Of a stretch of 64,000 nucleotides of DNA, positions 48,360 through 48,680 are shown piece after piece. The notes under the pieces are model-generated. The model was not told where the DNA came from, made no database searches, and saw only the letters and a program-made list of their open reading frames with translations. The first letter of the stretch is position 1, and each line of letters starts with the position of its first letter. The DNA is from Halorutilus salinus. GTDB taxonomy: Archaea; Halobacteriota; Halobacteria; Halobacteriales; Halorutilaceae. The translations under genes and the position numbers were made by a program. The stretch is from assembly GCF_026242195.1 (NCBI RefSeq), contig NZ_RKLV01000003.1, positions 124,001 through 188,000 of the forward strand. The letters are read 5' to 3'.

Positions 48360-48680
48360 ACCATAATAGTTAAATAAAAGGCTAACATAGACAAATATAG
48401 AATGGTTCAAACAGTAGCTACTTCCAATATCTGTGAAAACAGAGGTTTGACCCATTCAGGTAAGCCCGATCCAGAACTGTTCAGTTCTGCGGAGGGTGTA
48501 AAGCGGGCTGTGGACGCCCCACAGCGAATAAGACTCTCTGACTTGGAACGAAGTCAGACTTTGCAGGAATCTCCGCTGGAAGCCCCGTCATCAGAATCGA
48601 AGATTCTGATTGGCTCGTCAGGCGAAGTCTGACGAACGTCCTCAAGAAGTCTGCGTCAGCAGACGAGTAGGTCGGGGTAG
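48360..48680 (+). mobile_element. Hairpin-rich remnant, probably a non-autonomous IS200/IS605 (TnpB/IS1341)-type element
   Basis: An AT-rich left side (TTAAATAAAAGGCTAACATA) precedes a 76-codon ORF (48402-48632, [20 protein letters not shown]). Its start resembles TnpB N-termini (MVQTV-type), and its Ser/Glu-rich end resembles TnpB tails, with no catalytic core between. Six perfect stem-loops fill 48472-48664, and GTAGGTCGGGGTAGTTCAC follows, a sequence I associate with right ends of haloarchaeal IS1341-type elements. Together this suggests an internally deleted, palindrome-associated element. The TnpB link rests on weak similarity. Confidence 0.4.
48584..48664 (+). ncRNA. Hairpin train, copy A
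   Basis: Stem 1 (48590-48610; arms ATCAGAATC/GATTCTGAT, loop GAA), linker TGGCT, stem 2 (48616-48634; CGTCAG/CTGACG), linker AACGT, and a third stem GTCTGC-GTCA-GCAGAC (48649-48664). It aligns over 56 positions without gaps to copy B at 54031: linkers are 29 of 30 identical, stem/loop bases mostly different but complementary in both. That is the pattern of a structure-conserved RNA or ssDNA element. Confidence 0.45.

Follow-up and report, generated by a model that had tools for sequence, protein, structure and literature searches.

Twin-hairpin elements of Halobacteriales: a probable family of short non-autonomous DNA repeats, with copies in frame in conserved genes

Short paired hairpins occur at three places in the 64,000-nt stretch of Halorutilus salinus DNA analysed here (the window). 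The first, element A, sits in the right end of an IS605-type element, within the base of its palindrome; this host also holds a remnant of tnpB. The second, element B, is continued by further hairpins, and a third train of hairpins lies close to the end of the window. All features are on the plus strand:

48285-48685, plus strand: non-autonomous IS605/IS1341-type (PATE-like) element that bears element A, with a repeat copy on contig C1
48402-48632, plus strand: tnpB remnant, an N-terminal start fused to a C-terminal tail without the core (tblastn)
48586-48640, plus strand: element A, CGTC-hairpin 1 (48590-48610)-TGGC-hairpin 2 (48615-48635)-ACGTC; R1 score 71.8 bits, E 4e-20
48641-48685, plus strand: remaining IS605-type right end (CTCAAG...GAGTAGGTCGGGGTAGTTCAC), a motif also found after other tnpB genes
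54033-54086, plus strand: element B, CGTC-hairpin 1 (54037-54057)-TGGC-hairpin 2 (54062-54082)-ACGT; R1 score 69.9 bits
54087-54131, plus strand: two more hairpins of train B (54087-54109, then GCAG, then 54114-54131)
63168-63228, plus strand: third train, three hairpins (63168-63186; 63189-63205; TGGC; 63210-63228)

The original prediction aligned 48584-48639 with 54031-54086 over 56 positions without a gap, with linkers identical at 29/30 positions and intervening blocks agreeing at 8/26; the alignment is exact, and a count by hand gave the same figures. The blocks are self-complementary as described, but the stems are longer than noted and an outer stem extends into the supposed linkers: ATCAGA pairs with TCTGAT, so the first linker and part of the second belong to this outer stem. 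Hairpin 1 of element A has a 9-bp stem (ATCAGAATC-GAA-GATTCTGAT) and hairpin 2 (TCGTCAGGC-GAA-GTCTGACGA) has eight Watson–Crick pairs and one G.T, and hairpin 1 of element B has a single C.A mismatch. Train B runs beyond the end of that alignment, with its two extra hairpins reaching 54131. The third relative, which had been placed at 63189-63230, is real (63189-63228) but was incomplete, as a further hairpin (63168-63186) stands in front of it.

Folded as single-stranded DNA, element A, element B and the third train are each more stable than 200/200 shuffles (z of −3.4, −6.3 and −4.7, respectively), and the minus strand of element A folds into a three-way junction closed by CGT/ACG. Each has relatives elsewhere in the genome. 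Element A has a near-identical copy on contig C1 (C1:169736), and element B has a twin at C10:45145 with the same stems that differs only in both loops. Positions 54079-54146 are 79% identical to a train within a transposase gene on C1, and positions 63186-63232 are 89% identical to C12:153839-153885. Partial copies of tRNA 3′ halves (CTCGGCGGGATTTGAACC-like) lie at 63121-63140, 63254-63276 and 63348-63420 of the window, ahead of a tRNA-Arg gene; similar stretches occur elsewhere in the genome and resemble integration scars or att-site remnants.

The host of element A, approximately 400 bp long, is 98% identical to its copy on C1 over 48352-48685 and 96% identical over 48285-48358, so recent movement of A may have been the movement of this IS605 remnant. 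Positions 48457-48586 match the 3′ end of tnpB on C10 at 90% identity, and the tnpB remnant aligns with residues 376-439 of the C10 TnpB (45/64 positives, tblastn). The right end is 81% identical to that of an intact tnpA–tnpB element on C17; IS605 ends in this genome are CCCTCAA...GAGTAGGG palindromes. The suggested connection with TnpB-type elements thus holds for copy A, which sits in the right end of such an element. At C1:168559-169832, the gene for a DDE transposase (IS240/IS6-like) interrupts a second A-bearing IS605 remnant and contains two hairpin trains of its own, an arrangement of nested mobile elements.

On sequence evidence, A and B probably belong to a Halobacteriales family of DNA elements that are short, non-autonomous and built of two hairpins. 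The canonical unit is CGTC-hairpin-TGGC-hairpin-ACG, with two 9-bp stems and 3-nt loops; together with the 4-nt linker and the repeat, two such 9-3-9 hairpins add up to 51 nt, or 17 codons exactly. Across 86 elements of the TGGC type, the upstream flank is CGTC (C 93%, G 78%, T 80% and C 87%) and the downstream flank is ACG (91, 94 and 86%). We surveyed the genome (2.1 Mb, 17 contigs) for trains, defined as two or more C-G-closed hairpins, and found 44, against 1, 1 and 2 in order-2 Markov shuffles. Of 30 loci that we read, nearly all have the same design, for example GACGTT-CACGAGAGC-nnn-GCTCTCGTGA-GCCA-ATCAGAACGC-nnn-GCGTTCTGAT-GACG.

A covariance model built from eight copies, and scored on at most 96 candidates per genome, recovers many copies, far beyond the original two: 35 in this genome (G000), at least 78 in G013 and at least 37 in G021, the latter two genomes belonging to other families within the order. 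At least 54 of 59 Halobacteriales genomes have matches at E ≤ 1, the weak ones among which may be due to chance. The parts of G013 that were retrieved hold 57 trains (0 in shuffles), which reach about 15 hairpins and mix several linker types. The suggestion of a small non-autonomous element is borne out. An exact-pattern scan found no match in IMG/VR viral contigs and, with its narrow pattern, only two MAGs among GTDB genomes; a general repeat search did not pick up the hairpins.

Two other repeats in these genomes contain hairpins. One is a four-copy repeat (C12:71226, C11:109642, C10:133397-133539 and C16:25036-25183), approximately 90–96% identical over about 140 nt; two adjoining hairpins lie within it, and it may represent an independent mobile repeat. 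The other, at loci L175 (6330-6450 and 6870-6990) and L182, comprises four hairpins, has inverted ends (CCACGGGT/ACCCGTG) and spans approximately 125 nt; it may be a discrete relative of larger size bounded by terminal inverted repeats.

Several copies lie inside protein genes for which relatives have an empty allele. RNA polymerase subunit D carries a 51-nt in-frame insert of 17 extra codons around DVRQTQSDEPSNSAEV, in a stretch that includes DVRQTQSDEPSNS, and the congeners G002 (87% amino acid identity) and G001 (81%) have none. PCNA has a 42-nt in-frame insert (14 extra codons) that is absent from G002 (93% identity), and YjbQ has a 51-nt in-frame insert (17 extra codons) that is absent from G002 (78%) and G003; these three proteins were named through NCBIfam. 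A conserved protein on C13 has a 54-nt in-frame insert of 18 extra codons, which its G002 homologue (81%) lacks. The C17 TnpB has two inserts, and a 64%-identical homologue in G006 has neither. Among in-frame copies with different stem lengths there are 4-nt loops and odd linkers.

Another insert lies within a DNA polymerase intein, in its second LAGLIDADG-like motif, and is absent from G021 and G010; a SWIM-domain-like protein has two inserts, although its relatives are too distant to define empty sites. The intein belongs to a 2,517-amino-acid DNA polymerase B open frame at C11:1910-9463 that has several intein-like segments, and the twin-hairpin element in the motif may inactivate homing. 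Further hosts include TnpB genes and remnants, the DDE transposase gene and intergenic DNA. Short direct repeats of 3–5 nt surround the inserts (GAC...GAC, AACG...AATG and GTCTC...GTCTC), and the empty alleles contain a corresponding motif. The reading frame is maintained, with no stops, at every insertion checked, a tally that is not an unbiased count because the insertions were chosen from open frames. In the commoner orientation, the in-frame translation of the element is a hydrophilic peptide, DVRQTxSDEPxRSxASGD.

The stems of these elements change in concert. Among the eight aligned copies, 29 cells have changed on both sides, compared with 8.3 in shuffles, the covariation score is 0.62 (0.19 in shuffles) and there are no one-sided changes to a standard pair; the compensatory change originally seen between A and B is thus real. 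We also compared 95 homologous pairs of elements with matching flanks (1,832 stem pairs; the homologous pairs are not mutually independent). Both sides have changed in 95/1,832 stem pairs, 84 of which are still Watson–Crick, against approximately 12 expected from the per-base rate. The argument that ordinary decay would destroy pairing is partly wrong, as 112/1,832 changed on one side, and arm conversion is therefore strong but incomplete.

Over the same homologous pairs, the rate of change is similar in stems (8.2%) and linkers (8.8%) and higher in flanks (14%), and exact reverse complements account for 29/119 changed loops. Among elements of G021 with the same arms, the figure is 29/73 changed loops, against a background of about 9% (p 7e-13). 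Two four-hairpin copies in G013 have rewritten stems and have kept their linkers and ends. A TnpB element common to this genome and G013 has 60% DNA identity overall, and its insert is near-identical, differing by one compensatory pair and one loop. Selection for stem-loops, which the original prediction took the compensatory changes to imply, does not suffice as the sole explanation, given the frequent exact loop inversion and the similar rates of stems and linkers. Instead, these two features point to a mutational mechanism, which we infer to be template switching. Elsewhere, template switching homogenizes hairpin arms and inverts loops or spacers (PMC8794818, PMC8604942). The twin-hairpin elements resemble those hairpins in their compensatory arm changes and loop inversions, and differ in forming a mobile element family, whereas the published cases are in RNA genes and yeast genes (PMC8794818, PMC8604942).

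The hairpins themselves are of a DNA type. When the closing pair is left free in the count, triloops account for 72/92, 178/189 and 75/84 of the train hairpins in three genome sets, and a C-G pair closes 82/92, 182/189 and 74/84. The GNA/TNC share of C-G-closed triloops in trains is 59, 50 and 76%. Isolated hairpins reach 19% and shuffles 15%, so that trains exceed the background 3–5 times. Yoshizawa and Hirao described C(GNA)G as a DNA mini-hairpin of exceptional stability (cited in PMC6479982).

In the favoured account, the element probably inserts beside GAC(G)-like targets and leaves the 3–5-nt direct repeats. Its own ends carry this motif, so copies may land beside copies, which would give rise to the trains. 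In single-stranded DNA, which we infer to be the active form, during replication or transposition, the hairpins would fold as mini-hairpins with C-G-closed triloops, and a template switch across the palindrome would copy one arm onto the other and flip the loop. The arms would thus drift together and the linkers would stay. The hydrophilic peptide would let the element persist inside genes, as with Rickettsia palindromic elements. More tentatively, we suggest that the identity of the element resides in its fold and linkers rather than in its stem sequence, and that a putative single-strand DNA transposase recognizes this structure; the element would be translated inside essential genes, and template switching would keep the palindrome while the arms drift freely.

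The strongest competitor, although itself unlikely, is that the element is a REPIN- or PATE-like IS200/IS605 derivative, mobilized in trans by a Y1 (HUH) TnpA acting on hairpins in single-stranded DNA. Two hairpins, short conserved guide-like stretches, DNA-type triloops and a short target motif would suit such an enzyme, and each of the four tnpA genes of this genome has trains at a distance of about 2 kb or less. However, the IS605 ends (CCCTCAA...GAGTAGGG) and the element share no sequence, and genomes G044, G049, G057 and G021 are rich in hits yet have no Y1 match. Element counts do not follow those of tnpA, the obvious candidate (rho 0.01; genomes partly incomplete). Moreover, IS200/IS605 elements make no target duplication (PMC3119063), yet direct repeats flank the inserts. 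A Y1 transposase is plausible but unsupported as the mobilizer.

REP/REPIN sequences with TnpA-REP (RAYT) also consist of paired short hairpins and are non-autonomous and present in many copies. REPs are extragenic and conserved in stem sequence, whereas twin-hairpin elements are often intragenic, have variable stems and occur in numbers that Y1 genes do not track. In Haloquadratum walsbyi, PATEs and SMR-A elements are transposase-free mobile repeats with palindromes that concentrate in IS605-type elements, as the twin-hairpin family often does, and SMR-A inserts within near-terminal IS605 palindromes, as element A does (PMC3119063). PATE palindromes match IS605 ends, which the twin-hairpin consensus does not; only the 400-bp host of A qualifies as an IS605-derived PATE. 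SMR-A is described there as approximately 110 bp long and uniform in sequence, with terminal inverted repeats and no target duplications, unlike the 51-nt unit with its 3–5-nt direct repeats, and intragenic in-frame insertion is not among the properties drawn from that account for either (PMC3119063).

Selection on a structured RNA, such as an omega-RNA-like guide scaffold or another non-coding RNA of TnpB elements, is improbable. Strong covariation speaks for it, as do the position of A within an IS605-type right end, at the 3′ end of tnpB and on the same strand as in an omega-RNA, and the presence of 12/44 trains no more than 700 bp from tnpB genes, which make up 1.3% of the genome (p 5e-13). 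Against it, many copies lie in open reading frames, in the intein or in intergenic DNA, and they stand in frame and on either strand in unrelated genes. A scan with Rfam matched tRNAs and an L4 leader only and left the element unmatched. Stem mismatches in 1,565 cells comprise 14 G.T, 27 A.C and 34 others, so wobble is not favoured, and the G-U intermediates or wobble enrichment expected of a structured RNA do not appear in these cells. The C-G-closed triloops also depart from RNA hairpins, in which 4-nt loops dominate (loop table of PMC8794818), and the loop inversions are exact. The proposal of a guide-RNA-like part or a new non-coding RNA is thus not supported; the hairpins probably act as DNA and bear no mark of selection on RNA. 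The L4 leader, an Rfam L4-Archaeoglobi ribosomal protein leader at 31146-31242 of the window (64 bits), occurs here in a halophile-like genome.

It is more improbable still that in-gene elements go untranslated because the ribosome skips them or they are removed from the RNA. There is a precedent in Magnusiomyces capitatus, in which mitochondrial genes are interrupted by bypassed byp nucleotide blocks (PMC5009743), but byps disrupt reading frames, and no disruption occurs at any site checked, all of which are in frame and stop-free and were chosen from open frames. Least credible of all is that the palindromes are immobile and arose locally, each generated from its surrounding sequence by template switching: the process does yield perfect hairpins and loop inversions (PMC8794818) and the stems are variable, but unrelated loci have linkers, ends and stem words in common, empty sites contain no hairpin precursor and near-identical twins occur at distant loci.

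A mobile DNA element tolerated within proteins has its closest functional parallel in the Rickettsia palindromic elements (RPEs) of Ogata and Claverie. Like RPEs, the twin-hairpin elements are short palindromic repeats of non-coding origin that lie in frame within conserved protein genes, and a mobilizing enzyme is known for neither (PMC2229807). Subunit D, PCNA, YjbQ and the C13 protein each carry such an in-frame palindrome where relatives are empty. RPEs are 105–146 nt long and form one long imperfect stem-loop (PMC2229807), whereas the twin-hairpin unit, of about 51 nt (inserts of approximately 42–54 nt), has two perfect triloop hairpins with hypervariable arms and fixed linkers, is often arranged in trains and lives in Halobacteriales. 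The family therefore works like RPEs in function, but neither its size nor its architecture is homologous to theirs. Previously described archaeal repeats have fusion into protein genes in common with it.

To our knowledge, in-frame palindromic elements have been known mainly from Rickettsia. Many haloarchaea are cultivable and genetically accessible, and a widespread archaeal family whose hosts include RNA polymerase subunit D, PCNA and an intein provides a tractable system in which to study both the movement of such elements and their tolerance by proteins. The family is also a natural source of data on template switching and loop inversion. Its strong base-pair covariation, arising from DNA elements that give no sign of RNA function, is a warning for the discovery of non-coding RNAs by covariation.
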